Below are positions 13,381 to 45,721 of a DNA stretch of 45,721 nucleotides, piece after piece. The stretch is taken from NCBI GenBank assembly GCA_017623115.1, contig JAGAPT010000016.1:1-45721 (forward strand), written 5' to 3'. This stretch comes from Alistipes sp. GTDB taxonomy: Bacteria; Bacteroidota; Bacteroidia; Bacteroidales; Rikenellaceae. The position numbers and the translations under genes are program-made. How positions within the stretch are numbered: position 1 is the stretch's first letter; each line of letters starts with the position of its first letter. The notes under the pieces are model-generated. The model had not been told where the DNA came from and did no database searches. It saw nothing but the letters and a program-made list of their open reading frames with translations.

Positions 13381-14823
13381 ATGAAGATTACCAACCGGAT
13401 CCGGCCCTGTCAAGCAATCATCCTGACCCTTTTGAGCTTTTTCCTGCTCGACACCGCACTATATGCGCAAGCAGACCAACAACCGACGTGCATCTATGTG
13501 GAGGCCAAGGAGCGCAACAAAGAGCATCCGAATCTGCCAAAATGGAAGAGGTATCCTGCACGTACCATTGCTTGTCTGGCCGACTCTCCGCAGCAGGCCG
13601 ACCGCATCACCCGACGTGGCAGTTGGCAGGAGGTACGTTTTCCGGCCACCGGCTACTTTCACACCGCCAAGCACAACAACCGGTGGGTGCTCGTAGACCC
13701 CGAGGGGTATCTCCATCTCGAAGCAGCCGTCGTGGGTATCCGCCCGGGAAAGGGAGAGACCAACCGAGCCCATTTTGCCACCAAATTTCATGACACGACG
13801 GACTGGATGAACCAAACCATCGAACAACTCGTCTCTTATGGCTTCAATGGCGCCGGAACGTGGTCAGACGAAGCAACCATTCGAGCCTACAATCAATCCT
13901 CGCAAGGAGCCCTCTTCTCCTGCAGCCCGATGTTGAATCTCATGTCCGGATATGGGCGAAAACTGAAAATCACCCGACAGTTAGCCGGCAACACAGGCTA
14001 CCCCAACCAATGTATCCCCGTCTTCAATCCGGGCTTCGAGGCCTACTGCGAGCAGGTCATTCCCGCGTTGGTCGCCACGCATAAAACCGACGCCAATGTG
14101 CTTGGATTCTTCTCCGACAACGAGCTGCCTATCAGCAAGAAGAATCTCGAAGGCTACCTCACCCTTCCCGAAGACGATTACGGTCGCAAAGAGGCCGAAC
14201 GATGGTTAGAGCAGCAAGGCATCACAGCGGCACAAATCACCGATGCGCATCGATGCGCGTTTGCCGGCTATGTCAGCGAGCGTTACTACGCAACCGTTCG
14301 CCGCATCTTGAAGAAGCATGCCCCCAACCACCTCTACCTCGGCAGTCGGTTGCACGGTGGGGCGAAATTCATCCGCGAAGTGGTGGAGGCTGCCGGTCGC
14401 CACTGCGATGTCATCTCGTTCAACTATTACGGATTCTGGACCATTCGGAAACAGGACATCGCACACTGGGAGGAGTGGGGCAAAAAGCCCTTCATCATCA
14501 CCGAGTTCTACACCAAGGGCGAAGACTCAGGCTTGGCCAACACCTCGGGAGCCGGATGGAATGTGCGCACCCAAGAGGCTCGCGGCATCCACTACGAAAC
14601 CTTCATCCTCAACTTATTGGAATCGCAGCATTGCGTAGGCTGGAGTTGGTTCCGCTATCAGGACAACGACCCCACGGCCAAAGGCGTTGACCCCTCAAAC
14701 ATTGACGCCAACAAGGGATGCTTCGACAATCAATACGAGCCCTACCTCGATTTAGTGAAGCACATGCGCGACATCAACACCATCAAATATGCATTGATGC
14801 AACAAGCCCTGCAGCAACCATAA
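13381..14823 (+). CDS. Agarase-like glycoside hydrolase (clan GH-A type)
   Basis: This is a secreted or periplasmic enzyme that probably cleaves a glycosidic bond by the retaining double-displacement mechanism. The 480-residue protein has a signal peptide (about residues 1-30, ending ALYAQ), then NRWVLVDPEGYLHL, a motif seen in agarase-like proteins. A TIM barrel follows with FFSDNE (acid/base candidate Glu 248 preceded by Asn 247) and IITEFYTKG (nucleophile candidate Glu 375), as well as WSWFRYQDND near the end. The closest families I can name are GH50-like and related agarases; the substrate is unknown. The start at 13381 lies after a -7 element and yields the signal peptide; the longer in-frame upstream stretch overlaps the promoter. 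Confidence 0.75.
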   Translation: MKITNRIRPCQAIILTLLSFFLLDTALYAQADQQPTCIYVEAKERNKEHPNLPKWKRYPARTIACLADSPQQADRITRRGSWQEVRFPATGYFHTAKHNNRWVLVDPEGYLHLEAAVVGIRPGKGETNRAHFATKFHDTTDWMNQTIEQLVSYGFNGAGTWSDEATIRAYNQSSQGALFSCSPMLNLMSGYGRKLKITRQLAGNTGYPNQCIPVFNPGFEAYCEQVIPALVATHKTDANVLGFFSDNELPISKKNLEGYLTLPEDDYGRKEAERWLEQQGITAAQITDAHRCAFAGYVSERYYATVRRILKKHAPNHLYLGSRLHGGAKFIREVVEAAGRHCDVISFNYYGFWTIRKQDIAHWEEWGKKPFIITEFYTKGEDSGLANTSGAGWNVRTQEARGIHYETFILNLLESQHCVGWSWFRYQDNDPTAKGVDPSNIDANKGCFDNQYEPYLDLVKHMRDINTIKYALMQQALQQP

Positions 14824-32779: not shown

Positions 32780-32834
<55 letters not shown>

Positions 32835-32854
<20 letters not shown>

Positions 32855-32996
32855 CTTGAGCAGAAAACGCTTGGAGGTTTCCAAGCGTTTTTTTTGTGTC
32901 AAGCCGTCTGTGAGCACGCTCACACGTTTGCCTAAAAAAAACGACTGCCTCCGGCAGGTTTTCTGCCTGCGTAGCAGAGGGCGTTTAGGGCAGGGT
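32835..32996 (+). repeat. 162-bp direct repeat, copy 1 (contains tRNA-His 3' end)
   Basis: This segment (162 bp) aligns without gaps to copy 2 at 33051-33212, with about eight mismatches, all in the second half; the first 82 bases are identical. It starts at TTCGAGCCCC inside the T-arm of tRNA-His and includes the tRNA terminator and a GC-rich tail. Confidence 0.9.
32865..32896 (+). terminator. tRNA-His terminator
   Basis: AAACGCTTGGA pairs with TCCAAGCGTTT (32865-32875 and 32880-32890), followed by T run. An identical copy lies at 33081-33111 in the second repeat. Confidence 0.85.
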
Positions 32997-33050
32997 TGCC
33001 GAAATAATGGTGTTGGATTTTTTAGCGGTATTTCGACGAGTGCTTCGCAC

Positions 33051-33212
33051 TTCGAGCCCCTTCTTCCACCCTTGAGCAGAAAACGCTTGGAGGTTTCCAA
33101 GCGTTTTTTTTGTGTCAAGCCGTCTGTGAGCAAGCTCACACGCTTGCCGCAAAAAAACGACTGCCTCCGGCAGGTTTTCTGCCCGCGTAGCAGAGGGCAG
33201 TTGGGGCAGGGT
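33051..33212 (+). repeat. 162-bp direct repeat, copy 2 (partial tRNA-His 3' end)
   Basis: The copy begins TTCGAGCCCCTTCTTCCACC, identical to the last 20 bases of tRNA-His, and carries a second copy of the tRNA terminator at 33081-33111. It lies 216 bp from copy 1, with 54 bases between them. A duplicated tRNA 3' end is the usual footprint of integrase-mediated insertion (attL/attR) or of a tandem duplication beside it. Confidence 0.85.
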
Positions 33213-33223
33213 AACATACGAGT

Positions 33224-33256
33224 ACAAAAAAGGGAAAGATTTTCCTCTTTCCCTTT
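33224..33256 (-). terminator. Minus-strand hairpin with T run
   Basis: AAAGGGAAAGA (33229-33239) and TCTTTCCCTTT (33246-33256) form a perfect 11-bp stem; on the minus strand a TTTTTT run follows. It could be a second terminator for the defence cluster. Confidence 0.6.
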
Positions 33257-33363
33257 CCGTACCCCCCCCCAGGGGCTCGACTGCGCTACTTGCGTAGGCA
33301 GTCGTGTGCTCGAAAGTTTACACCCTCCCATCCTCCCTGAAAGGGAGGCGCATTCAGGGTTCT

Positions 33364-33432
33364 CGCCCGAGGGTATAAAACAAAAAATCCGATGGAAAAC
33401 CATCGGACCTTTTGTTGTACCCCCTCAGGGCG
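33364..33432 (-). terminator. Long imperfect palindrome with nested terminator
   Basis: The core TCCGATGG AAAA CCATCGGA (33388-33407) is followed on the minus strand by TTTTTTG. The palindrome extends outward with ACAAAA/TTTTGT and CGCCC...GGGCG arms to 69 bases. It lies after the last gene of the minus-strand cluster and probably terminates it; the outer symmetry is more than a terminator needs. Confidence 0.65.
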
Positions 33433-33553
33433 TGGCATATACCCGCACAGAGTGGCGTAGAACGAATAATCTGCGGACATGGTTTGCTATAGGTTTCGAT
33501 TTTTTGTCTAAATCGTGTCTAACTTCGCAAACCTATCTTATATATCCAATTTT

Positions 33554-33907
33554 CTACAATAACAGTGTACCAAAAACTCTCTGGACATCAGCAAAAGTCT
33601 TACACTTAACCACTGTCGCATCGAGTTTAATATCCTTTTCTTTGTGTTGAGTACGCTGCACAACATCAAAGATAACCTGGATGTCCTCTGGGATGTTAAT
33701 AGTCTCAATCTTGATTGAAGACTGATTCTTCATTATAACATTATAGTATTCGTCAACAAAACTTCTTGTTGCGAATTTAACACCTGCGAAATCCACAACT
33801 ACAGATTCGCTCCCAGTATTATGTATATATAGGAGCAGATCAGCAACAGCAAACCTGGACATCAGATCGGGTTTAAGCAATGTGGCTATGTCAATGGTCT
33901 TATACAT
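33554..33907 (-). CDS. STAS-like (DUF4325) protein
   Basis: The 117-residue protein has the pattern SVVVDFAGVKFATRSFVDEYYNVIM (about residues 35-59) typical of STAS-like DUF4325 proteins, which have a STAS fold and often act next to an ATPase of the histidine-kinase type. It starts 21 bases after an AlbA_2-GHKL protein gene, so the two look like partners in a switch. I chose the ATG at 33905-33907; a TTG six codons upstream is possible. Last gene of the five-gene cluster. AT-rich, unlike the core genes. Confidence 0.78.
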   Translation of the reverse strand: MYKTIDIATLLKPDLMSRFAVADLLLYIHNTGSESVVVDFAGVKFATRSFVDEYYNVIMKNQSSIKIETINIPEDIQVIFDVVQRTQHKEKDIKLDATVVKCKTFADVQRVFGTLLL

Positions 33908-33928
33908 CTTTATTATTCTTCGCAACTA

Positions 33929-35386
33929 CTACTCTATTATTTCCCAAAAGCCACCTTTATCAGCACCTACTCGACGGATATACTTATTTCGCATTTTTTT
34001 AATATTGTTACCGATCGCAGTAACGCTAATGCCAATAGACTCAGCCAATTCTGATTGAGAAATATATGGATTACCAGCGATTAAACGCAATATGGTAATT
34101 CTGTTTTCAGTTAACTTATCTCCGTTTTCGATAGCCTTTTCTACCAACTTTTCTATCAACTTATCCGTATTTTCTACCAACTTTTCTGCTCCTCCATCTC
34201 CATTTTCTACCAACTTTTCTGTTACCCTTGGGACAGAAACTTTCAAAATAAAGTCTTCAGTATGAAATGACAGAGGTGCTGCACCATTAACTTCCAGCTC
34301 ACGATACATACGATCAACGCCCTCGCCATACTCTTTGACATAATGATAGGTCTTTAAGAATGCGGCGATCTTTGGATTACGCGAGAAATGGGTGCTGCGA
34401 ATATTAGATGGTCTTACCATTCCAGGCAGCTTACCAGGACTCTCAAATACGATACGATCATCAAACATTTTAATTTGGATCTCAGTACCTTTTATGTTGT
34501 AGGCTCTGTGACAACATGCATTTACAACCATCTCCTGGATAACAAATTTGGGGTAATCTCTGCGTGTTATAAACTTACCTGATTGTTCCAAGAAAGTGTG
34601 TTCGGCAACTTGTGTTTCCAGGTACTCAACAGTCTTTTCTACCTGCTCCAGGATTGTGCCTTCAAATACAACATCCTTAATTACATTCATTTCCGCACCA
34701 ACTTTCTCTTCAACTCCATTAAAGCGTATGAAGCGTGTACGAGCACGAGGTAGATAGTTCTGAGGATTCTTTCCGAATAACAGCATGCAAGCGACACTAA
34801 TAACCTCGTCCCCATTCTTATCGATAGTCACGAAATGGTTATTCTCTCTCAAATACTCCATCGGTGATTTGTTATATCCCAGCAAATTTACATATTTAGC
34901 CACAGCATTCATATCCAAATCATGAACTGTCGCCCCATAAACAGCCGTATCTTCAAATGAACGCTCACCCTTGTCGTACATCAATTGTACTCGTTCATCA
35001 AATGTCAGCTTGCGACTCTTGTCGCCAACTCGCATGAAAGCTTCATCTGCTTGGTTGGTATGAAGACTCGAACTGGCAGGAATATGCATCAGTAGAATAC
35101 GATTTTCATTACCATCCTTATCTGTGCAAGGCATGTAACTACATGTTACCGAAATAGAAGGGTTGCAAAAGTCAAACGGAACGCGTAATAATTCGTTCAG
35201 TTTTTGGGTGTCTTGATCTACACCTTCTATTGTTCGCGTCTTATCGGATACGCCAATAGCAATTACACCTCCGTCTGCATTGGCAAATGCAACAACTGCG
35301 ATTGCTAATGCCTTAGGGTCAATTTGAATGCTCTTGCAATCAAAAGTCTGATCTTCTTTGCGGCTTTGTATATCTTGTATGGTCAT
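33929..35386 (-). CDS. AlbA_2 / GHKL ATPase-like / winged-helix protein
   Basis: The 485-residue protein has an AlbA_2 (divergent AAA_4, Schlafen-related) domain at about residues 8-125 (FANADGGVIAIGVSDKTRTIEGV). A GHKL ATPase-like domain of the RecG-associated type follows at about 270-365, with N-box-like EMVVNACCHR (285-294), DDRIVFESPGKLP (309-321) and EYGEGVDRM (352-360). A linker at 389-427 repeats the motif EKLVEN, and a C-terminal winged helix spans 429-485 (SQSELAESIGISVTAIGNNIKKM). Proteins of this layout are frequent in defence islands and mobile elements and may act as DNA-binding regulators. It probably pairs with the downstream STAS-like protein. Confidence 0.85.
   Translation of the reverse strand: MTIQDIQSRKEDQTFDCKSIQIDPKALAIAVVAFANADGGVIAIGVSDKTRTIEGVDQDTQKLNELLRVPFDFCNPSISVTCSYMPCTDKDGNENRILLMHIPASSSLHTNQADEAFMRVGDKSRKLTFDERVQLMYDKGERSFEDTAVYGATVHDLDMNAVAKYVNLLGYNKSPMEYLRENNHFVTIDKNGDEVISVACMLLFGKNPQNYLPRARTRFIRFNGVEEKVGAEMNVIKDVVFEGTILEQVEKTVEYLETQVAEHTFLEQSGKFITRRDYPKFVIQEMVVNACCHRAYNIKGTEIQIKMFDDRIVFESPGKLPGMVRPSNIRSTHFSRNPKIAAFLKTYHYVKEYGEGVDRMYRELEVNGAAPLSFHTEDFILKVSVPRVTEKLVENGDGGAEKLVENTDKLIEKLVEKAIENGDKLTENRITILRLIAGNPYISQSELAESIGISVTAIGNNIKKMRNKYIRRVGADKGGFWEIIE
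34138..34220 (-). repeat. Three direct copies of TTTTCTACCAACTTTTCT in the linker
   Basis: The 18-base unit or close variants occur three times in the coding strand complement of the AlbA_2 protein gene and encode the repeated EKLVEN linker (residues 389-427). A fourth degenerate copy reads CTATCAACTTATCC. Repeat-number change would alter the linker length without shifting frame only if it occurs in multiples of three. Confidence 0.65.
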
Positions 35387-35502
35387 GGTCTACTTTTTAT
35401 CAATAGTTAGTCATTGCTTTCCTCAGTGCAAAATTACATTTATTTTAACATAACACTATGTAAATTCTAACTTTTTCTTTATTTTCTCGTTGCCATCCAT
35501 TT
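35387..35502 (-). promoter_or_regulatory. Internal spacer with possible promoter before the AlbA_2 gene
   Basis: The 116-base gap is the only large one in the cluster. On the minus strand it has TAATTTTG at 35429-35436, a fair -7 element, so the AlbA_2 and STAS-like genes may have their own promoter. No good -33 element is visible. Confidence 0.5.
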
Positions 35503-36306
35503 TTACTGTAATAATCGGTCTAATTCCTTATTTATTAAGCCAATAAATACCATTCCAAAACTTAACAATGGCTCAAACTCGTCTTCATCTTCATTGGAGA
35601 GAATATTGCTAACACACAAGCCATGAATATATTGAGATAAATGAGAAGATATACAATCGATAATATCCTCCCTTTTATCAATTAGTTCGTATAATTCTTT
35701 CCAAGTATATTGATTATTTTTAGCTTTTCTATGACTCCCCAAAATTTTGTACTTCCAATTAGAACTCTCAATACACGTGCGTCTATGAAATTCTGGATAC
35801 GATGTAGCATATTTGTGATTAGCCAAAATCTCATTACAATGGTTTATAACGCTTTTATCAGATTGTCGTGTATCTGTATATCTATCATTAAGTGCTTGGA
35901 ATGCTTCATGAGAGATAGTTCCATTATACACTAAATCATGTTCCATCGCATCAACGCGTGACGATAGTCCATCTTTGACATACAGATAATGCCTATATAT
36001 TCTTTCATCTTCATCTTCTGATGCATATATTAACCTATACACAGCCAGAGAATCAGCAAGCATTCGTACAATAGCATTGGCAACCACATAATCTTGTAGC
36101 CTAACACATACGAAAACTAATGTATCGAGCATCTTTACACTCTTCCTTAAGATTGCTAAACCAAAGCCATTAATATCATCGACATTCAACGAAGAAGATG
36201 TTGGCACAATTGTATCAATCTTATCACTCGCGATTTGCATTAGTAATAAAAGAGTATCTTGGGCAGATATTCCCAATTCTGCTTGCGTTTTATTAACAAT
36301 CTTCAT
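35503..36306 (-). CDS. Uncharacterised helical protein
   Basis: I do not recognise this family with certainty. The 267-residue protein is predicted to be largely alpha-helical and soluble (no signal peptide or obvious span). Helical stretches include VCVRLQDYVVANAIVRMLADSLAVYRLIYASEDEDERIYRHYLYV near 87-131. It might belong to the DUF5677-like group of mobile-element proteins; this is a weak guess. It lies 2 bases after the methylase gene and so is cotranslated with the restriction-like genes, which makes a functional link likely. Confidence 0.6.
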   Translation of the reverse strand: MKIVNKTQAELGISAQDTLLLLMQIASDKIDTIVPTSSSLNVDDINGFGLAILRKSVKMLDTLVFVCVRLQDYVVANAIVRMLADSLAVYRLIYASEDEDERIYRHYLYVKDGLSSRVDAMEHDLVYNGTISHEAFQALNDRYTDTRQSDKSVINHCNEILANHKYATSYPEFHRRTCIESSNWKYKILGSHRKAKNNQYTWKELYELIDKREDIIDCISSHLSQYIHGLCVSNILSNEDEDEFEPLLSFGMVFIGLINKELDRLLQ

Positions 36307-36308
36307 TG

Positions 36309-39300
36309 CTATTCAATTTTCTCGTATTCTTCGCGTGTAATTGGTGTTTCTGGATCTACAATAAGAACCTCATCGTAGGTAAGATTATAAAGTTTATATA
36401 CAAGATAATCTATTTTATTCTCTAACGATTTTGTATCAGCATGTATGTCAATCTTCTTTGCCTCAAGAATCTTATTCACAAGTTCGATATATGGGACTTG
36501 ATTATCCGCTATGACTAATGGCAAATTATCGACTTCATATCCATTGACATTACTATTGGTACTTAAAAGTTTAAAAATATAATTCAACAATGAACTATTC
36601 AACAAAGCTAATGCATATCTTGGGTTTATATCTGGTAAAAAACGACAATAATTGACAGAGTTCGCACAATATGTATTTCTGCCTATAGTCATTTTAAGAC
36701 GTATTCGTTCGTTTACGCCAGTTATACCTTGCATTATAATTCTTTCTTCAGCAAACAACTCTGGTGATACATTCTTAATACTGGTTAAGATATCTCTATT
36801 TACAAAGAAAGTCTCTCCTTGACTCATCTCTTTCCTTACTATAAATCGATCTATATTTGCTCCACGCAACATTTTGGCATCGCCACTATTAGATGTAAAT
36901 GCTGGCTTACAAAATGTCATATCCAATTCGCCTGCATAACATTTCCCGAATTGTACTAATGGCATAGATTTAGAATATACTTTAACTAAAATTTTTGAGT
37001 CATCAATCTCAGTTAAAGGTATGGTCATGTTAACTTTATCTACACTTTCAATATCTTTGATTGTGAATACGCTAAACGGCTTATGAGTTTCAACAAATCT
37101 CTCCCTATTTATTCTGATCCCAAAAGGAGTGTTGTTGCGTTCTTTTGATAACTGAAGAATGCATACAGATATCTTCGCATTCTCAAATACGCGCTTTTTG
37201 GGGTTATCCCTCTCAGGGAAAGCTTCAATTTTGTAGATTGTATAGTTTTCAAAAATAAATCTACGCAATCTTGCGGCACTTAAATCGCAAGTGTATGCTA
37301 ATGGAAAAATTTCACTAAATACTCCCTTTGTACATAGATAATCAATACTTCTAATGATAAACAATCTGAATATATTTAGCATTCCACCCTGAGCGGGCTT
37401 ATATATTGGAGATGTCTTATAGAAGTCCAATATCTCTGGCTCAACAATTATGGATTCACCTTTATTTTGTTTCTTATTAAATATTCCATAAGGAGGATTT
37501 CCTATTACAATATCAAAACCATCCTTAACACCGAACATCCAATCAGTATCAAAGAATGATGCCGCAGAGTTTTGGTCGAACATATTCCATGACGCAATTT
37601 GATTAACTGCACCTGATGTTAGGAAGCCATCGCTTGCTAATTTTTCAGCCAATCGAGTGCGTAACTCTGCAAGTCGATTCTTCCAGTAAGCCTTCTTCGA
37701 GTATTTGTCCGCACTAAAAATCTTATGGTTTGCCTCTTTAAGTTTATTCTCCAACTCAATTATATCAGGAGTACGCCCCAAGTTGTTGCCTGTCTTTGCA
37801 AGTGGAATAAGTGAGTTGGCTGCCACAAACTTAGCCTCAAGGTTAGGCAATGGTCTAATACCAAAGTTATTCACTGGATCGTTTGTCGTCTTTTGATCAA
37901 CAACCAACGAAATGAAGAATCGTAGTTTGCTTATCTGAATTGCAATTGGTTGGATATCTACACCATATATACAATTTTCAATCAAATAGAGTTTGCGGGC
38001 ATAGTCTGGACGATTGATACTCTTGTCGAAGTTACGCTCAATGTCTGCAACCATCTCTCTTCGTTCCTCATCAGTGGCTGTGCGATATGCTTCAGATGTC
38101 TCACTAATAGCCCTATTTAGCATCATCTCCTTCCACTGCTCATTGGTAGGGTCAAGTTGCGAGAGGATATGTACCATCTGCTGCAACATGCCAACAGGGA
38201 AGGCTCCAGAACCACACGCAGGATCAAGCACCTTGCAATGATAGATAGACTCCATCACTTGTATCTTCTGCTCATTGGTTAGTTGGATGTCATCATCCAC
38301 ATAACTAATGAGTTTGCGGTACTCGGGCTCCAACTCATCGCCTACGGTACGCTTCAAGTGTGCAACAAGGCTTTCATCAACCATATACTGCACAATCTCA
38401 CGAGGGGTATAGAATGAACCTGTCTGCTTGCGGGCAGTTGTCTGTGTTTCGGGATTATATGACGCCAAAAGGTTCTCAAACACTTTACCCAGCAACTCGG
38501 GATCGAGCGATACATCTTGGTCGAATGGCGTATTCTCTTCAATAGTAAAGTTGTAACGCTTCAGGATATTAATGATACCATTAACCATTACACGACTCTT
38601 CTTCTTGTCGTTATACCACAGCGACAAGTCCACAGTATGGTCTTCAATAAAGAATAGATAATCTGGAACAAATAGAGCTTTTTTAACCTTTTCTCTATCC
38701 GAAAAACCATCAACATAATAGTCCTCATTCTCGCGGTCTAAACAATCGAATAATCCACCATTAAGGAACGGAACGGTCGCGTTTGCAATCTTCAGAAAAC
38801 GCTCGGCATCCTTAAAGTGCTTCTCATAACGCATTAGCTTATGATTACCATGATCTGTATAATCAGCGTTGCTAAAACGCCTCTCAGAAATGGTGTCTTT
38901 ACCCTCTGGGGTAATAGGACTATTCAGCATCGCAAAAAAGAGATTCTGGAGGATAGCTTTGTAATATACGCTCTCACCATCCATATACATCAAATCGGTT
39001 ATCCGATCTGGTGTAAACCCTTTTATAAGTTTATCAATCTCTTCTTTGTCAAAGAACTCTTCGGGGATTAAGTTCTTTTGTTTCAGAAACCACACAAATA
39101 TCAGTCGAGTAACAAGGCGGATAGCGGCTTCGGAATTATATCTACTATCATCACTCGTATCACCTAATTTATTCGGGAATCGAACGACCTTAACAGCCCA
39201 AGCGTACCAGTCTGAAAGCTCTTGATAGAAAGCTTTTGTGAGAACCTCAACAGAGAAACGACTTTTAAGATCTTGTTCATCAGCAACTCTTTGTCGCTTA

Positions 39301-39740
39301 TTCAGATACTCATTTGGTGTATAGCAACCTACTCCCTCTCCCAAGTAATAAGAGTAACGACGAGGATTGGAATATGTACGAGTAACGCTTGGAGAGTTTT
39401 CACTCAACCCCAATGTAATCTCAATTAGAGAGAAGCGATAGTTTGCATTGTTATCTTCTGGAACAAAGATGACTAAAGCTCGACTCTCACCTTCATCAGC
39501 CAACAAACGGAAAGCCTCTTTAGACAGACCAACACGAGCGTCATGTTTTGATTTGTGCTTAATTTCAAGCACAGCCAAATCAAGCTGTTCGCTTGAGCCA
39601 AGTTTCACTGCGCTGGTGGCATATTTTGTCTGAGTAGCGAACTCCAACTCGGTTGTTTCCTGTACAAAATCCTCAGGTAAGAACTTTGTTCTTAGAAATG
39701 TTACAAATTCGCTTCTATTGTAGGCTTTATTAAACTCCAT
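36309..39740 (-). CDS. Eco57I-type class I DNA methylase, possibly fused to a nuclease domain
   Basis: The 1143-residue protein is an N6-adenine methyltransferase of the Eco57I/type IIG sort. It has motif I DPACGSGAF at about residues 506-514, the catalytic motif IV NPPY at 748-751, and a long C-terminal region (about 800-1143) that should be the target-recognition domain. The N-terminus has LDLAVLEIKHK with Asp 54, Glu 59 and Lys 61, a spacing like that of PD-(D/E)xK nucleases, so it may be a single-chain restriction-modification enzyme. It starts 12 bases after the PLD-helicase gene. AT-rich, like its neighbours. Confidence 0.88.
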   Translation of the reverse strand: MEFNKAYNRSEFVTFLRTKFLPEDFVQETTELEFATQTKYATSAVKLGSSEQLDLAVLEIKHKSKHDARVGLSKEAFRLLADEGESRALVIFVPEDNNANYRFSLIEITLGLSENSPSVTRTYSNPRRYSYYLGEGVGCYTPNEYLNKRQRVADEQDLKSRFSVEVLTKAFYQELSDWYAWAVKVVRFPNKLGDTSDDSRYNSEAAIRLVTRLIFVWFLKQKNLIPEEFFDKEEIDKLIKGFTPDRITDLMYMDGESVYYKAILQNLFFAMLNSPITPEGKDTISERRFSNADYTDHGNHKLMRYEKHFKDAERFLKIANATVPFLNGGLFDCLDRENEDYYVDGFSDREKVKKALFVPDYLFFIEDHTVDLSLWYNDKKKSRVMVNGIINILKRYNFTIEENTPFDQDVSLDPELLGKVFENLLASYNPETQTTARKQTGSFYTPREIVQYMVDESLVAHLKRTVGDELEPEYRKLISYVDDDIQLTNEQKIQVMESIYHCKVLDPACGSGAFPVGMLQQMVHILSQLDPTNEQWKEMMLNRAISETSEAYRTATDEERREMVADIERNFDKSINRPDYARKLYLIENCIYGVDIQPIAIQISKLRFFISLVVDQKTTNDPVNNFGIRPLPNLEAKFVAANSLIPLAKTGNNLGRTPDIIELENKLKEANHKIFSADKYSKKAYWKNRLAELRTRLAEKLASDGFLTSGAVNQIASWNMFDQNSAASFFDTDWMFGVKDGFDIVIGNPPYGIFNKKQNKGESIIVEPEILDFYKTSPIYKPAQGGMLNIFRLFIIRSIDYLCTKGVFSEIFPLAYTCDLSAARLRRFIFENYTIYKIEAFPERDNPKKRVFENAKISVCILQLSKERNNTPFGIRINRERFVETHKPFSVFTIKDIESVDKVNMTIPLTEIDDSKILVKVYSKSMPLVQFGKCYAGELDMTFCKPAFTSNSGDAKMLRGANIDRFIVRKEMSQGETFFVNRDILTSIKNVSPELFAEERIIMQGITGVNERIRLKMTIGRNTYCANSVNYCRFLPDINPRYALALLNSSLLNYIFKLLSTNSNVNGYEVDNLPLVIADNQVPYIELVNKILEAKKIDIHADTKSLENKIDYLVYKLYNLTYDEVLIVDPETPITREEYEKIE

Positions 39741-39752
39741 ATCCTAATCTTT

Positions 39753-42700
39753 TTATGCTTGCGTAATCTCTTCTGCCAATATAAGGGTTTCCTCGCCATC
39801 CTCAACCTGGCTGCTTATACGAATAATTCTGTTCAAATATTCTTGCTCAATCTCTTTGGGCAACAGTGAGTATTCGTCTGGTTTAAGTTGATTTATAAAA
39901 CGGATTTCGTAACCAGATAAACCATCGTTTTGTGCGACTGCTAATAGGTCTTTCAAATAGTCTATGTTGGTAATTGCCTTCGTCTTAATCATCGCCTTTA
40001 TTTTCGTAATAGCCTTGAGTAGTTCTTGGGGATTACGACTTTTAGACTCAGACTTAAACAAATTCTGTTTGACATTTTGATAGACCTTATCAAATTCTTT
40101 GGTCAGATCACAAGCAGCTTCTCCTGGTAACGCTTCAAACAGAGCAAACGCTTGTTCTGCTGTCAGCTGTTCAACAATGTCTCCAATGCCTATCTTAAAG
40201 ATGTAATCATTGCCCTTTTTGCCAAACATTAGTACACCAGAATGAGACTTTTCAATCTTACGACCTGTACGAGCTCTATGAGGTATTGCAAGAGCCTCTT
40301 CATAAGCCTTTGTGCCTTTGAGTTCATCCAATAGTTTGCGATAGGGACTATCCCAAGAGGACTCTTCGCTAACCTCCAGCTCTCTACGATAACGCTCTTT
40401 GAAAAATGCTCGCACCTCTTCATCCTTAGTAAGAGCCTTTGTATCCTCTCCCATAATGGCATGAATCATAGCCATTTTCAAGGTTGATATCTCTTTTGTG
40501 CGCGTCTCGCTCTCACCTACATCTGTCGGGAAGTAGTTGTAGATATACAACTCCTCAAACATCTTTTTGTTGATGCGGTTTATACGACCAATACGCTGGA
40601 TGACACGAGTCGGGTTGTACGGAATATCATAATTGAAGATTGCTCCTGCGCGATGGAGATTGTAACCCTCAGAGATGGCATCTGTCGCAACTAATATTTG
40701 ATAATCGTCTTTCTGTAAACTCTTTTTGAGTCCAGCATCAAAGTTCGCTCTAATCCTATCTTTGTTTGCCTGTGATGCATCTTTGGATGTATACTTAAAC
40801 ACAGGAAATCCAGCCTCTGCTAAACATTGTCCCACATAATCTGCAGTGTCTGCAAATTCACTAAATACGATAATTTTTCGTTTGGGGTCTTCTTTAAGAC
40901 TTTTTGCGATAATAGCCTTAAAGGACTCCAATTTAGGATCAACAGATATAATGCCCTCTGAGCCAAACCACTTATATCGTATTGTTTTTAATAACTCAAT
41001 ATCCCTCTTGACATCTTCCACAAATCGAGGGTCAATGTATTTCATGTCAATATCGAAAAAGCCTCGCTTATTATATTGTTCCAATGCGTCTTCGATTTCG
41101 GTCATACCATCTTCAGTATCAGTATAAAAATCTTCAACCAAAGGCAGATTACCCTTTTTGTAGATAGGTACTTTATTACACTTATGTACCCAAGCAAGAA
41201 TATTTTCACTTGATTTAATCATAAAGTCAAGTGAAGACTTAAATGCTGCTACCGAGCTCTCAAATCGGCATACAAGCAAGTGTCTCATAAACTTCGAGAC
41301 ATTGGCTTGTCGTCCTACCAAGAGGTTAAATTCTACACCCGTTTTCTTCTCCAACTCGTCTGCTAACTCTCCTTTAAGTTCCGCAGGGACATATAGCACT
41401 GGAGAATATCGTGCTGCCTTAAAACGATAAATACCATCGGGTCGTTCGGTTGAGCCGTCAATTAAATCCAATGTCTCGAGGTATAGCTCACGAACAGAAC
41501 TTAAATCATACTCCAACTCAATAGGGTCGTTTGGAACAATGAGTTGAATGCCTTGCCTATCCAAGTCCTCTTTATACTGCGGGATTTGAGTTAAGTCCAC
41601 TCTTGAACGACGCACTACCAATGGACTTATAATTGAACGAATAGATTTTGCTATGCGCTCCGCCTCCAATTTAACCTCTGCATCTCCAATATTGCCCTTG
41701 CGCTGATTTTCTCGCAACTTTTTGTATGCATCAATAAGGTCTCGAAAGGCAATGCCCAGATTTTCCACAGTCCTTAATGTCGATTTGGATGGAATCTGGA
41801 ACAATTTAAGCATCGAATAAATATCGTCTGGACGATTATTAAACGGAGTAGCAGTTAACAAAAGCACCTTATTACCACTACATAGATTATGCAGGTTTGC
41901 GTAGTCCTGTGTATACTCATTTCTATATCGATGAGCCTCGTCAATTACTATAAGGAATTGTTCGCCATCTCGTTTTATCTCTTGGAAGTGATTTAAGGCT
42001 TGCTCTATTCTACCTCCACTATACACAGATGCGTTAAAACCAAATTCGTCTTTATAAGTTTCCCACTGATTTGACAAGTGAGGAGGACAGATTACGATTG
42101 TCCTCAGCTTTAAGTTTCTTGCAACTGTTGATGCAATCACACTCTTGCCTAAACCTACTACATCAGCGACAATTGCTCCATTGTGGTTTTCAATAGCATT
42201 AAGAGCAAGCTGTACCGCATCTGTTTGATACTTTAAATTGGAGTATCTACCATCCGTAATGTCGTATGGTGTTAAGACATTCTCTTTGGTCGGAATTGCA
42301 AAATATTCATTTAGCACACGAATGTACATGAGATATGGTGCATACAACTTCTCATACCAAATTTTCTTTATTACTTTGTCGTTGAATTCCTCAACGGTAT
42401 TTTCGTCAATAAGAACAACGGATGTGTCCCACAACGCATCAAATATTTTTCTTGCATCGACAAAGGTCTGCTTGTCGTTAAAACGAGCATTTATCTCAAT
42501 GCGTCCCGCCAAACCAGCATATGACAAATTGCTTGATCCAGTGATTACACTACCTGGGAGTTCACCACTTTCATTCACCAAATCAGAATACTCGAAAATA
42601 TATAGCTTGGCGTGGCACGGATCTTCAGTTTTACGAATTTCAAGAGTTCCATTCTTTATTTTCTCGTAAAATAACTTAAATGAGGCTAACTTCTCCTCAC

Positions 42701-43016
42701 TATCAAGAAAATCACTTTCATTGAATAATTTTACAAATTGAGCAAAATAGTCTTCTCGAATTTGACCTCTTGATTGTTGAGATGAGGTCAATGCATTTAT
42801 CTCTCGGATATGTTTGGTGATTTGGGTGTCGACATCCAAGCCTACAAGAATACGAATATTCTTATCTGCAAGACCCTCTGACAATAGATTGTAACCAGAG
42901 TAATAGAAATACCCAACAAGCATATCTACAGCCTGTGTTTTTGGTAATATTCCATTGATGATCTCCGCAAGGAGTTTCTCTTGGTTAGTAATAAATGTAT
43001 TTTGACTCATACCCAT
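39753..43016 (-). CDS. PLD-nuclease / SNF2-family helicase
   Basis: The 1087-residue protein has an N-terminal phospholipase D-like domain with HAK at residues 135-137 (HxK motif) and ITGSSNLS about 158-165. A superfamily-2 SNF2 helicase core follows, with GLGKS at 288-292, DEAH at 359-362 (VIDEAHRYRNEYTQ), LLLTATPFNN about 386-394 and a C-terminal helicase motif VI QRIGRINRINKKM. PLD-helicase fusions are seen in anti-phage and restriction systems, where helicase translocation is coupled to DNA cleavage. It is the first gene of the five-gene cluster, with the methylase 12 bases downstream. A second ATG lies two codons into the frame. Confidence 0.87.
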   Translation of the reverse strand: MGMSQNTFITNQEKLLAEIINGILPKTQAVDMLVGYFYYSGYNLLSEGLADKNIRILVGLDVDTQITKHIREINALTSSQQSRGQIREDYFAQFVKLFNESDFLDSEEKLASFKLFYEKIKNGTLEIRKTEDPCHAKLYIFEYSDLVNESGELPGSVITGSSNLSYAGLAGRIEINARFNDKQTFVDARKIFDALWDTSVVLIDENTVEEFNDKVIKKIWYEKLYAPYLMYIRVLNEYFAIPTKENVLTPYDITDGRYSNLKYQTDAVQLALNAIENHNGAIVADVVGLGKSVIASTVARNLKLRTIVICPPHLSNQWETYKDEFGFNASVYSGGRIEQALNHFQEIKRDGEQFLIVIDEAHRYRNEYTQDYANLHNLCSGNKVLLLTATPFNNRPDDIYSMLKLFQIPSKSTLRTVENLGIAFRDLIDAYKKLRENQRKGNIGDAEVKLEAERIAKSIRSIISPLVVRRSRVDLTQIPQYKEDLDRQGIQLIVPNDPIELEYDLSSVRELYLETLDLIDGSTERPDGIYRFKAARYSPVLYVPAELKGELADELEKKTGVEFNLLVGRQANVSKFMRHLLVCRFESSVAAFKSSLDFMIKSSENILAWVHKCNKVPIYKKGNLPLVEDFYTDTEDGMTEIEDALEQYNKRGFFDIDMKYIDPRFVEDVKRDIELLKTIRYKWFGSEGIISVDPKLESFKAIIAKSLKEDPKRKIIVFSEFADTADYVGQCLAEAGFPVFKYTSKDASQANKDRIRANFDAGLKKSLQKDDYQILVATDAISEGYNLHRAGAIFNYDIPYNPTRVIQRIGRINRINKKMFEELYIYNYFPTDVGESETRTKEISTLKMAMIHAIMGEDTKALTKDEEVRAFFKERYRRELEVSEESSWDSPYRKLLDELKGTKAYEEALAIPHRARTGRKIEKSHSGVLMFGKKGNDYIFKIGIGDIVEQLTAEQAFALFEALPGEAACDLTKEFDKVYQNVKQNLFKSESKSRNPQELLKAITKIKAMIKTKAITNIDYLKDLLAVAQNDGLSGYEIRFINQLKPDEYSLLPKEIEQEYLNRIIRISSQVEDGEETLILAEEITQA

Positions 43017-43329
43017 AGTAGTTACATATTTCTAATCCCGTTGCAAATCTCCACATATATTTTGACAACTTATGACAATCGCCAAAATTTTTCGATTACG
43101 GATATAAACCTTGCAACATACAAAAATAAGCAAAATTTAGCAGACGGAGTCGGTTTTTGGGAAAAAGTTATTACCTTTACACTGAAAATGTTTCACTTAC
43201 TAATAGTTACTGCCGCAGCAACTTATAGAAAACACAATAAAAATAGCAATCATACAGCCCGTCTTGCGCAACGCAGGATGGGCTTTTTTGTTTCAAATAT
43301 TCACATTTACTCACTTAAATCAAACAGCT
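43017..43329. promoter_or_regulatory. Divergent intergenic region of the defence cluster and the RteC-like gene
   Basis: About 310 bases, AT-rich on the left and with a hairpin on the right. I find no clean TAnnTTTG promoter on the minus strand for the helicase gene. For the plus strand TACCTTTA (43172-43179) is a near match but is poorly spaced from a TTTG at 43156-43159. It ends in the terminator-like hairpin at 43256-43296. Confidence 0.45.
43256..43296 (+). terminator. Terminator-like hairpin in the RteC-like leader
   Basis: AGCCCGTC and GCG arms pair with CGC and GATGGGCT arms around a CAA loop, followed by a TTTTTTG run. It ends about 40 bases before the RteC-like ATG and does not follow a plus-strand gene, so it is more likely a leader attenuator or the end of a small RNA. 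Confidence 0.55.
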
Positions 43330-43915
43330 ATGAGAGCAATTTTTGAGAGCCGCTTTATGCAAGTGGCACTATCTGGCGGCAGTCAGATGACCGATGTGGA
43401 ACTCAACTCTGAGTTCGAGCGTTTCCAGCACGAGGTGCGCAACCTTTTGATGAGCGACAATGGTTACCTTGCCATTGACTTTACCCTCCGAGACCTGTTG
43501 GCGCAGTTAGAGGGCGCGATGTGCGGCAAAAAAAAATGAGCACCTCCGCACACTTCTCAAGCGGGCAAAAGCCAACCTCCGCACCTGCATTGCCCAGAAT
43601 GAAAAACGCCTAACCTTCCCAGAACTCTTTACACCACTCTCTCCTCCAACTCGCTCACCGTATCGGTGGAACGATAAATTCACAAAGCGAGACCTCATAG
43701 AACTCGCAACAGCTCTTGAAGCCACACAAGCGGTAGTAGACTCTAATGGTAAACCCGCATCATTTACTCAACTTATAGAGCATTTCTCGTTCACATTCAA
43801 TCTATCGATTAGCTCCAAAACCGCCTATAATGAACGAGAATACATACGCAATGTAAGGCGCAAATCATCGGAATTTATACACCGACTCGAACAAGCACTT
43901 TCTAAAAAAGTGTAA
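43330..43915 (+). pseudogene. RteC-domain protein gene, frame broken at an A9 tract (broken, recoded or phase-variable)
   Basis: RteC-type proteins regulate excision and transfer of Bacteroides conjugative elements. The ATG at 43330 gives 69 residues ending CGKKK and a stop at 43537-43539. One base out of frame a further 128 codons (43529-43915) continue without a start codon and resemble the RteC C-terminal domain: TKRDLIELATALEATQAVVDSNGKPASFTQLIEHFSFTFNLS... and YIRNVRRKSSEFIHRLEQAL. The join lies at nine A (43528-43536); the downstream frame is reached by skipping one base. The whole would be about 195 residues, shorter than full-length RteC. A terminator follows. Confidence 0.7.
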
Positions 43916-43954
43916 ATTTCTCAACGCTGACATACAGCATTTTACAAACTATTT

Positions 43955-43989
43955 TGCAGGGACTCCAATAGGGACTCCCTGCATTTTTG
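43955..43989 (+). terminator. Terminator after the RteC-like gene
   Basis: TGCAGGGA (43955-43962) pairs with TCCCTGCA (43976-43983) and TTTTTG follows. It lies 40 bases past the end of the RteC-like frame. Confidence 0.75.
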
Positions 43990-44044
43990 ATTTCTGCACT
44001 TCGGAACTTTGCACCCGAAAGCTAACGATAAAAACCGAAGAGTT

Positions 44045-44395
44045 ATGAGGATTGAAGATTACGAAAAGTTCATACGCCAGGAACTTATGAGGTATCGTTC
44101 CGAGGTGGAGAAGATCGCTTCGCAGCGAATGGTCTCTTTTGAGGAGGAGTACATCGCAAAGAACAAAGCCGCCAAGATGATAGGTGTAACACCTCGTACC
44201 ATTGACCGCTGGTCTATTGAGGGTTATATCAAGCGAGTTCGCGTGGGAGGTCGCATCTATTTTCAGCGCGAGGAGGTGCTGCGTGTAACTCAGCTGTACA
44301 ATTTCGGCATTGGGGCATTGGCTACGGCACATCTGCATCAGCCATTTAACAAATCACTATTGGAAAACAAAGAAGTTACAGAGTCGTATCGATGA
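44045..44395 (+). CDS. Excisionase-type helix-turn-helix protein
   Basis: The 116-residue protein has a MerR-like winged HTH of the excisionase type: YIAKNKAAKMIGVTPRTIDRWSIEGYIKRVRVGGRIYFQREEV (about residues 38-80), with a preceding helical N-terminus (MRIEDYEKFIRQELMRYRSEVEKIASQ). Such proteins act as DNA-bending excision factors or transcriptional regulators on conjugative and mobilisable elements. Its stop overlaps the ATG of the next gene (ATGA), showing translational coupling. The true start is the ATG at 44045; a TTG twelve codons upstream is possible. Confidence 0.82.
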   Translation: MRIEDYEKFIRQELMRYRSEVEKIASQRMVSFEEEYIAKNKAAKMIGVTPRTIDRWSIEGYIKRVRVGGRIYFQREEVLRVTQLYNFGIGALATAHLHQPFNKSLLENKEVTESYR

Positions 44396-45276
44396 ACTAC
44401 CTGACGGAAATACGGCTCTTCTATGATTGGCTGGAGACACACCATCTCTCGCCATCATCCATCGCGCTCTGGCACGGATTGATGTATATCGCCAATCGTG
44501 CTGGGTGGGAGGAGTCGCTGTGTATTCCAATCAGCCGTATAGAGAATCGCACCCAGCTATCGCGCACCTCAATCTATCGAGAACGGCAACGCCTCCAGGA
44601 GGCGGGTCTGCTCCGCTACATAGAGCGCGAGGGAAGGCTCTCTTCCGTCTATCATCTTCAATCATTCGAGACACGCTTTGTGTGCCAATCTGGTACACAA
44701 GCCGACACACAACCAACAAATGCCGAAAATTTTGTGTCCCAGGATATGTCCCAAATTGGAACACAAAGTGGGACACAAGTTGGGACTATATATAAACTAA
44801 ACGAAACTAAACAGAGAGATAATATTTTTACATCATTAGAAGAGCCACAGGGCGTCATAGCATCAAAGGGAAAAAGAGAAAAAAGTTCCGCGCAAAAAGA
44901 GAAAAAGCGAAAGCCGAACTTCAACGCCACAAGTTGGCTCGAATCACTCGAAGAGCCCTGGAAGGAGATTATGATGCTATGGTTTGACTACAAAGTATCA
45001 AGACGCGAGGAGTACAAAACAGAACTCGGAGCTCGAAAATGTCTATCACTCATTCGCAGGCTCTCGTCTAATAACGCTGACACAGCGCAGAAAATCATCG
45101 ACCAAAGTATGGCTAACAATTGGGCGGGAATCTTCGCCCTCCGCGATGGTCTGGCACGAGGACATCCGCCAGATGGTCGCCAGTACGGACAGCGCATTGG
45201 TCAGATCATCCAAAGTGATGACGACCAGAAGCGACAACGATATATCGACAAACTAAGGAATGCAGGTAAAAAATAG
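44392..45276 (+). CDS. Replication initiator-like protein with N-terminal winged helix
   Basis: The 294-residue protein has an N-terminal winged-helix domain (residues about 15-90, LSRTSIYRERQRLQEAGLLRYIERE in the recognition region), a Gln/Thr-rich repeat region (about 97-135; SGTQ, ADTQ, IGTQ, SGTQ, VGT) and a basic linker (KGKREKSSAQKEKKRKP). A C-terminal helical domain follows with LARGHPPDGRQYGQRIGQII. This layout resembles replisome-organiser proteins of phages and plasmids. It is translationally coupled to the HTH gene and followed 6 bases on by a DnaC-like gene. The repeat region coincides with iteron-like DNA repeats and an AT-rich stretch. Confidence 0.72.
   Translation: MNYLTEIRLFYDWLETHHLSPSSIALWHGLMYIANRAGWEESLCIPISRIENRTQLSRTSIYRERQRLQEAGLLRYIEREGRLSSVYHLQSFETRFVCQSGTQADTQPTNAENFVSQDMSQIGTQSGTQVGTIYKLNETKQRDNIFTSLEEPQGVIASKGKREKSSAQKEKKRKPNFNATSWLESLEEPWKEIMMLWFDYKVSRREEYKTELGARKCLSLIRRLSSNNADTAQKIIDQSMANNWAGIFALRDGLARGHPPDGRQYGQRIGQIIQSDDDQKRQRYIDKLRNAGKK
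44677..44840 (+). other. Candidate origin of replication inside the initiator gene (iterons plus AT-rich stretch)
   Basis: Copies of about TGGnACACAA occur at 44691-44700, 44702-44712, 44756-44768 and 44769-44779. Reverse-oriented copies lie near 44677-44687, 44731-44740 and 44745-44753. An AT-rich run (TATATATAAACTAAACGAAAC, then ATAATATTTTTACATCATTA) follows at about 44786-44840. This is the layout of an iteron origin with an unwinding element. It lies in the Gln/Thr repeat of the initiator, like the lambda O origin. Confidence 0.6.
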
Positions 45277-45282
45277 AAAACT

Positions 45283-45721
45283 ATGAGAACAATATCCGAG
45301 GTCATCGCGCAACTGCGAGAAGACAAAGTATTACTAGACACACAGATTAATAACTATTCTTGGGGCGACAAGACAAGATGTAAAGAACTATTTATGCATC
45401 TGTTTAAGCGACTAAATCCTACCATAGAACGCTACGAGTATTTGCCAGAATATGACGAGATCATTGATTGGATGACAAACACCCATGGTAAAGGTTTAAT
45501 GCTTATGGGGGATTGTGGACGAGGCAAGAGTATCATTCTTACACGCGTTATCCCCGTCTTGTTAGGTATGCAGGTAAAGAGAAGAATATACCCCGTGCAT
45601 GCATCGGAGTTTGCTTGGGTATACGAGTTCGCAAAGTCAACAATAGGATTTCAACCTAACGATACAAACCTCATCTATCTAACAAAGGCAGAGTTCCCAA
45701 TTATTGACGAACTCGGTGTAG
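45283..45721 (+). CDS. DnaC-like ATPase, N-terminal part (cut by window edge)
   Basis: The frame runs from the ATG at 45283 to the window edge without a stop (146 residues). It has Walker A GDCGRGKS at residues 76-83 and a Walker B-like FPIIDELG at the very end, as in AAA+ helicase loaders of the DnaC/IstB type. It lies 6 bases after the initiator-like gene, so it is likely the helicase loader of the same replication module. IstB-type transposition ATPases are an alternative, but no transposase is seen. Confidence 0.75.
   Translation, partial: MRTISEVIAQLREDKVLLDTQINNYSWGDKTRCKELFMHLFKRLNPTIERYEYLPEYDEIIDWMTNTHGKGLMLMGDCGRGKSIILTRVIPVLLGMQVKRRIYPVHASEFAWVYEFAKSTIGFQPNDTNLIYLTKAEFPIIDELGV

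Follow-up and report, generated by a model that had tools for sequence, protein, structure and literature searches.

Five genes on the minus strand of a 45,721-nt contig of the gut bacterium Alistipes sp. (JAGAPT010000016.1, analysed over its whole length and called the window below) encode a PLD–SNF2 helicase, an Eco57I-type adenine methylase, a protein of 267 amino acids (aa), a protein combining AlbA_2, GHKL and winged helix-turn-helix (wHTH) domains, and a STAS-like protein. The first two genes quite probably encode a two-component, ATP-dependent restriction-modification (R-M) system, with the other three as cargo in an accessory slot behind it. The methylase would, through its own target-recognition domain (TRD), methylate adenines at a short sequence and thereby protect the host DNA. 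Restriction would fall to the helicase subunit, which would be recruited to sites lacking methylation, translocate on the DNA by its SNF2 motor and cut with its N-terminal PLD (HKD-type) nuclease.

The pair would work like Type I and Type III R-M systems, in which an ATP-dependent helicase-nuclease is combined with a sequence-specific adenine methylase of variable target recognition. The window pair has the same combination, but no HsdS-type gene is found among the five genes, the nuclease is of the PLD/HKD type rather than HSDR_N, and the methylase is nearest to Eco57I rather than to HsdM. An earlier note on this DNA had read all five genes as one candidate defence cluster, with its helicase and methylase suggesting self/non-self discrimination; the discrimination is supported for the helicase–methylase pair, which looks like a self/non-self (R-M-like) module within a mobile island, and not for the five genes as one system.

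The reading of the pair as an R-M system rests on the near-constant presence of the methylase behind the helicase, the co-divergence of the two proteins, a TRD that varies independently of both and was likely exchanged between loci, and the conservation of the motifs, from which we infer methylation-dependent cutting. It is also based on the RhuM, DUF1016, TIR, AbiEii, HNH and AlbA_2 genes that surround the pair in other genomes, and on two precedents: the N6-methyladenine (m6A) produced by the Prevotella intermedia enzyme Pin17FIII, and the proposal, in the account of Type-2 BR given in PMC12839542, that the HKD-Snf2 and N6-methyltransferase components of those systems act in an R-M-like way.

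Conservation of the helicase–methylase pair

When bacterial genome contigs were scanned with an alignment of three helicases, 71 loci showed a relative of the helicase (48–71% identity). By record title, 67 of these are from Bacteroidota, and the other four (L048, L059, L074 and L079) are all metagenome bins. Among the 62 loci with at least 1.5 kb of sequence beyond the helicase, a count that includes the window and plasmid records, 60 have a methylase gene that follows on the same strand; it adjoins the helicase in 44, is separated from it by one open reading frame (ORF) in 14, and by two in the other two. The remaining two loci are L084, where the helicase is a fragment, and L013, a Thermaceae plasmid on which the methylase is upstream. 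L013 and a second Thermaceae plasmid, L012, both encode helicase relatives at 33% identity with the methylase upstream rather than downstream. A Parabacteroides plasmid also carries the pair (helicase 64% and methylase 52% identical to those of the window), followed by a different gene. The helicase–methylase pair is common in Bacteroidales.

The clustering of neighbourhoods took loci with a helicase match below 1e-100, which set aside L089, a short fragment, and the distant loci L015–L020. The methylase also follows the helicase in L089 and in five of the six distant loci, L016 ending too early to judge. L049 and L014, which have equal length and the same match to the window, probably represent a single contig, and the helicase and methylase of L073 are the same as those of L074. 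ORF calling in the relatives relied on a simple longest-ORF script, so small neighbouring genes may be wrong, and clusters were formed by BLAST single linkage.

Sequence statistics were calculated from near-full-length proteins, 40 methylases and 67 helicases with the window included. Over the 741 pairs formed by 39 near-full-length loci, which are not independent of each other, helicase identity and methylase-core identity had a Spearman correlation of 0.87. By these comparisons the helicase and the methylase are a coherent two-gene unit.

In the one close annotated relative examined, the two proteins carry no more than the labels 'SNF2-related protein' and 'N-6 DNA methylase', and no paper describing the family as such was found in the open-licence PMC literature. 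No relative of the helicase was found in viral contigs, and two phage records matched it with less than 60% identity and less than 80% coverage.

The methylase and its target-recognition domain

The methylase gene (36309..39740, minus strand) encodes 1143 aa. Pfam matches were to Eco57I (4.8e-23) and N6_Mtase (1.1e-10), with TaqI_C just under the cut-off. The motifs DPACGSGAF and NPPY are invariant in 40 of 40 methylases, leaving the S-adenosylmethionine and catalytic motifs intact. Profile matches in the PDB were to adenine methyltransferases, including BseCI, BrxX, TaqI and BpuSI, the best of them over profile positions ~735–1118.

A hypervariable target-recognition region lies at about aa 751–1100 (36441..37490, minus strand). 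When the window methylase was compared to its homologues in bins of 50 aa, identity in this region was 15–21%, while all other bins had 35–92%. Over the 340 residues at 756–1095 the median pairwise identity was 0.20, against 0.66 for the methylase core, and the Spearman correlation with helicase identity was 0.09. The hypervariable block aligns with adenine-methyltransferase structures, BseCI and BrxX among them. A TRD that varies independently of the rest of the protein, as is found in ATP-dependent R-M systems, is therefore present.

Among three loci with distant methylases the TRD has likely been exchanged. The TRDs of L058 and L054 are 0.63–0.64 identical to that of L075, while the rest of the methylase is 0.48–0.51 identical and the helicase 0.47–0.48. 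Measured in windows of 60 alignment columns, identity within the TRD was 58–90% for L058 and L075 and 46–83% for L054 and L075; elsewhere it was 22–64%, apart from one conserved window at 80–82%. Judged by these alignments, the behaviour of the TRD fits R-M enzymes that switch specificity and is not expected of a housekeeping methylase.

The helicase and the predicted site of cutting

The helicase gene (39753..43016, minus strand) encodes a PLD(HKD)–SNF2 protein of 1087 aa, the predicted restriction translocase-nuclease, with the Pfam domains PLDc_2, SNF2-rel_dom and Helicase_C. The PLD motif is HxKxxxxD. Its HxK is at aa 135–137 (42606..42614, minus strand) and a GSSN at aa 160–163; H135, K137 and G160-SSN163 are identical in 67 of 67 aligned helicases. 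Also identical in all 67 are G290, K291, the DEAH at 359–362, Q807, R808, R811 and R814, and S292 is serine in 66 and threonine in one. The nuclease and SF2 motor that an ATP-dependent R-M system needs are thus found in the partner of the methylase, as PLDc_2 and SNF2, with their residues kept except for an acidic one at position 142.

No Pfam nuclease domain was found in aa 1–400 of the methylase. The sole PD-(D/E)xK-like spot noticed there by eye is E59-x-K61, in which the glutamate is present in 40 of 40 sequences and the lysine in 10 of 40, with arginine in 16 of 40. Because the PLD, Walker A, DEAH and motif VI residues of the helicase are conserved, while the N-terminus of the methylase has no Pfam nuclease and the lysine of E59-x-K61 is not conserved, we place the predicted cutting activity in the helicase.

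The closest characterised relative of the pair is probably Pin17FIII of Prevotella intermedia. As described in PMC5608340, the Pin17FIII gene is 3354 bp, is annotated as Type IIG, and on expression in E. coli gave rise to m6A at GGYGAB. Its locus in P. intermedia 17F spans 7.6 kb between mobile-element genes, with similar genes reported in Rikenella microfusus. An SNF2/RAD54 helicase gene lies upstream of the 3354-bp R-M gene, as in the window pair, a likeness drawn from the description rather than from sequence. A further R-M gene of 918 bp, marked 'c' in the table of PMC5608340, lies alongside. In contrast to the window, the portion of that paper covering the locus does not mention STAS-like, AlbA_2 or 267-aa genes. 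P. intermedia had no record among the plasmid matches to the methylase.

Several points weigh against reading the pair as a two-component R-M system. Position 142 of the helicase, the D of HxKxxxxD, is glutamate or aspartate in just 25 of 67 sequences. The best PADLOC matches of the methylase are type IIG enzymes. Pin17FIII is assigned to the helicase–methylase family by the order and size of its genes instead of by sequence, and the open-licence PMC literature yielded no published methylation, cleavage or phage protection for this exact family. Lastly, the AlbA_2 and STAS-like genes are tightly coupled and may be more than passengers.

The PADLOC matches, together with the presence of the restriction enzyme BpuSI among the PDB profile matches and the Type IIG annotation given to Pin17FIII (PMC5608340), would suit an arrangement in which the methylase itself both cuts and modifies and the helicase is accessory or unrelated. 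Such a Type IIG enzyme is unlikely given that Pfam shows no nuclease domain at its N-terminus and the lysine of E59-x-K61 varies, and given that the helicase retains HxK, GSSN and the motor motifs and stays paired with the methylase.

Genes downstream of the methylase

The gene following the methylase is highly variable. A next gene is present in 34 of the 45 loci whose sequence runs on for 600 bases or more beyond the methylase, and these 34 genes fall in 26 clusters; the other 11 loci have none. Neighbour candidates were ORFs of at least 90 aa, reaching no more than two genes upstream; 149 of the 156 were searched against Pfam, seven short or very long ones having been dropped. Among the 25 commonest of the 102 families matched by these 149 proteins, there were AlbA_2 with HATPase_c_4 (11), TIR_2 (9), RhuM (7), AbiEii (6) and DUF1016_N (5), and HNH genes are also neighbours of the pair.

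In the window this place is taken by the gene for the 267-aa protein (35503..36306, minus strand), predicted to be variable cargo. The protein has no Pfam family above cut-off and no NCBIfam, PADLOC or PHROG match, and no solved structure matches its two-sequence profile. One relative besides the window copy was found in 295 genomes of the order; it is 28% identical, with no helicase among the surrounding ORFs. There were no relatives in plasmids or viral contigs, and none besides the window's in 395 genomes of the phylum. In the examined loci, profile and phmmer searches showed no other helicase with a neighbouring gene for this or for the STAS-like protein. An R-x5-H in the window copy recalls HEPN RNases; it is absent from the sole relative, and such an activity is not claimed. 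By comparison of the loci, the 267-aa gene is predicted to be one of many unrelated genes that occupy the slot behind the methylase.

A single five-gene system, with the 267-aa, AlbA_2 and STAS-like proteins as components needed once a target has been recognised, is improbable. The genes share a strand, tight gaps and similar base composition, and 11 other helicase loci also have AlbA_2-type genes. However, the full set was found in no other examined locus, which led us to reject the five-gene unit; the neighbourhood analysis likewise showed no relative of the 267-aa or the STAS-like protein at the other helicase loci, and downstream genes swap freely, with 26 clusters behind the methylase where any gene follows it. 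Such free variation is what the earlier note had itself named as speaking against a single cluster. There is also a possible promoter in the 116-base gap before the AlbA_2 gene. The Bacteroidota –7 promoter element has the consensus TAnnTTTG; TAATTTTGC at 35428..35436 (minus strand) is a match to the consensus only. A scan for the pattern gave 13 sites in the window against 5.5 expected from shuffled sequence, and in a sigma-70 scan of 33000–44100 sites were not in excess, with 30 observed and 32.8 expected. From the turnover of neighbours, genes 3–5 look like exchangeable cargo, not core components of the two-component R-M system.

Two recurrent groups were seen near the methylase. Genes of 176–235 aa following it in L022, L053 and L081 fall in one cluster, and TaqI_C specificity domains are present in 3 of the 149 neighbour proteins overall. 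The genes in L022, L053 and L081 may be spare specificity pieces, recalling the second R-M gene at the Pin17FIII locus. Cluster c2 is a protein of 209–234 aa near the methylase in 16 loci, including L024, L027, L028 and L037; the c2 proteins of L027 and L011, scanned singly, had no Pfam match.

The AlbA_2-GHKL-wHTH gene

The fourth gene (33929..35386, minus strand) encodes a 485-aa SLFN_AlbA_2–GHKL ATPase–wHTH protein, predicted to be an auxiliary Schlafen-type effector or regulator, with Pfam matches to SLFN_AlbA_2 (2.7e-19), HATPase_c_4 (9e-19) and HTH_24 (7.1e-09). A Schlafen/AlbA_2 domain, a minimal histidine-kinase ATPase and a wHTH in one chain is the architecture by which the relevant part of PMC12839542 recognises an auxiliary effector, and that account ties Schlafen-GHKL-wHTH genes to BREX/BR loci across no fewer than 1017 taxa.

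The AlbA_2-type genes of the 11 other helicase loci in the cluster are in changing positions and 22–26% identical to that of the window, and the distant helicase locus L015 has a further one at 30% identity. Closer relatives are elsewhere. One of 88% identity over 381 residues is at a contig end (L106); one of 69% is in an element bearing integrase and Mob genes (L142); and one of 59% immediately precedes HsdM and HsdS in a Type I R-M operon, which has HsdR as well (L105). At 1e-60 the protein was found in 3 other genomes of 295 in the order and in no plasmid, at 1e-40 in 12 phage records, and at 1e-80 in none of 180 genus genomes besides the window's. Because its closest relatives are in other contexts and its architecture is like that of the published BREX/BR auxiliary effectors, the gene is, on sequence grounds, a promiscuous accessory. 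Its most likely role is that of a Schlafen-type back-up effector or regulator, one of a type that attaches to many R-M-like systems.

PADLOC's pAgo profile also matches the protein (2.8e-33 over aa 26–368), as does, over its whole length, a PHROG annotated as DNA helicase (6.3e-123). Both names are probably due to relatives that are fused or wrongly named.

The STAS-like gene and its coupling to GHKL proteins

The last gene (33554..33907, minus strand), 21 bases after the GHKL gene, encodes a STAS-like protein of 117 aa that matches DUF4325 with 25.2 bits against a cut-off of 23 (1.3e-05). The listed start is a TTG at 33925, which is probably not the true start; an alternative ATG at 33907 yields the 21-base gap. 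Two other genomes among 250 of the family have a relative of this protein, and none was found in plasmids or viral contigs. The closest, 79% identical, is in L098 of genome G125, behind a GHKL-like gene (HATPase_c at 7.7e-04, under cut-off) and an integrase adjoining a tRNA-Gly. G125 also carries two copies, ~6.9 kb apart, of this STAS-like relative's 3' end together with the hairpin that follows it (L098:6664–6820 and 13559–13720), perhaps the footprint of a second insertion or a relic of recombination. A 395-aa third gene in L045 had a weak profile match to DUF4325 (E 0.00099) that Pfam did not support, and it was not used.

More widely, DUF4325 was matched in 26 of 247 sampled genomes of the order, that of the window included. 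The sample provided 29 loci besides the window, 28 with an ORF, which were examined with a GHKL N-box pattern. In 20 of the 28, DUF4325 is either fused to a GHKL N-box protein or closely linked to the gene for one, with an overlap of at most 43 bases or a start no more than 22 bases behind it. In a stricter GHKL test – an N-box and then DxGx(G/T) – 16 of 26 proteins passed, and 16 of 26 likewise had HATPase_c at E ≤0.05. In the window, the place of the GHKL partner is taken by the Schlafen-type protein, a pairing seen once; an AlbA_2 gene followed by DUF4325 was not found at any of the 13 viral loci that have an AlbA_2 relative.

Since DUF4325 is usually coupled to GHKL and is coupled here to a Schlafen-type GHKL protein, an AlbA_2–STAS regulatory pair is plausible. 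Partner switching between anti-sigma and anti-anti-sigma factors offers an analogy. A tentative suggestion, with the odds against it, is that the two genes are a new module in which the STAS-like partner restrains or releases the GHKL domain of a Schlafen-type nuclease, possibly an RNA-cutting enzyme, that would fire when the adjoining restriction system fails.

Comparison with BREX-related, DISARM and Pbe systems

The pair shares features with several other systems. Type-2 BR, as outlined in PMC12839542, has an HKD-endoDNase fused to a Swi2/Snf2 helicase along with an N6-methyltransferase, and the Schlafen-GHKL-wHTH accessories of BREX and BR systems resemble the fourth gene of the window. 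Type-2 BR also has a DUF499 AAA+ ATPase, which was not found in the genome of the window in a search that detected the Thermotoga maritima control; standalone DUF3780 likewise had no match in this genome, in a search without a working control. DISARM, like the pair, has an SNF2 helicase (DrmD) and an adenine methylase (DrmMI), but DrmD matches scored 145 and 92 bits against NCBIfam cut-offs of 610 and 950, the helicase being the 145 against 610, and neither DrmB nor DrmC is among the matches listed for the five genes (the best 25 PADLOC matches for the two large proteins). BREX PglX matches are also below the curated cut-offs (52 bits against 500 for BREX-1, 32 against 400 for BREX-2 and 20 against 900 for BREX-6).

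The helicase resembles PbeA and the PADLOC profile 'HKD+Snf2' (C3a139; 3.5e-38 over aa 8–837) in having an N-terminal HKD domain and SNF2. PbeABCD, as presented in the relevant section of PMC10853773, centres on a CxC ABC ATPase together with a relative of DndE, neither of which is among the matches listed for the five genes. Taken together, the DISARM, BREX and Hma profiles match the pair partially, in agreement with the earlier note's view of DISARM and Hma as partial analogues only. A BREX-related Type-2 BR or DISARM system with its other genes lost or scattered would account for the two Type-2 BR components (PMC12839542) and the distant DrmD and PglX matches, but is very improbable given that DUF499 was not found in the genome, the partial matches to DrmD and PglX far under their cut-offs and to PbeA, and the absence of such partners from the 25 commonest of the 102 neighbour Pfam families.

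Locus layout and the edge of the island

The five ORFs, their strand, gaps (12, 2, 116 and 21 bases from helicase to STAS-like gene) and AT-richness are all as the earlier note placed them. The G+C content of the five genes is 0.34–0.40 per gene, compared to 0.54 in the window at 1–32700. Pfam bears out the domain labels that had been given to the helicase, methylase, AlbA_2-GHKL-wHTH and STAS-like proteins.

An insertion footprint at a tRNA-His gene (32781–32855, plus strand) is also confirmed. The 3' end of the tRNA recurs 216 bases downstream within a 162-nt direct repeat, whose first copy (32835–32996, plus strand) starts in the tRNA-His 3' end and whose second copy (33051–33212) is 95% identical to it. 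In the whole assembly (2.19 Mb in 60 contigs, 99% complete, of which the window is contig C3), the 18-nt tRNA-His 3' end occurs only twice, both times at the island edge. The contig ends at 45721, and the far end of the island is beyond it.

RteC is a regulator of Bacteroidales conjugative elements. On the helicase side of the island is an RteC-like C-terminal remnant (43541–43915, plus strand; PF09357, 3.1e-06), directly preceded by an ORF without a Pfam match (43264–43539). The genes at 44009–45721, up to the contig end, have HTH_17, HTH_36 and DnaI-like matches and look like part of a mobile element.

Conclusions

As far as its sequence can tell, the pair is a little-described R-M variant with exchangeable cargo and an unusual AlbA_2–STAS coupling. 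If the nuclease is the PLD domain of the helicase, the Type IIG label that PMC5608340, the only experimental paper found on a likely relative, gives to Pin17FIII misplaces the cutting subunit. The coupling of DUF4325 to GHKL proteins offers a testable role for a domain of unknown function, and the free exchange of genes behind the methylase makes the slot a hunting ground for new effectors. If that reading is true, many Bacteroidales loci can be counted as predicted ATP-dependent restriction systems, which would hinder the use of genetic tools as well.

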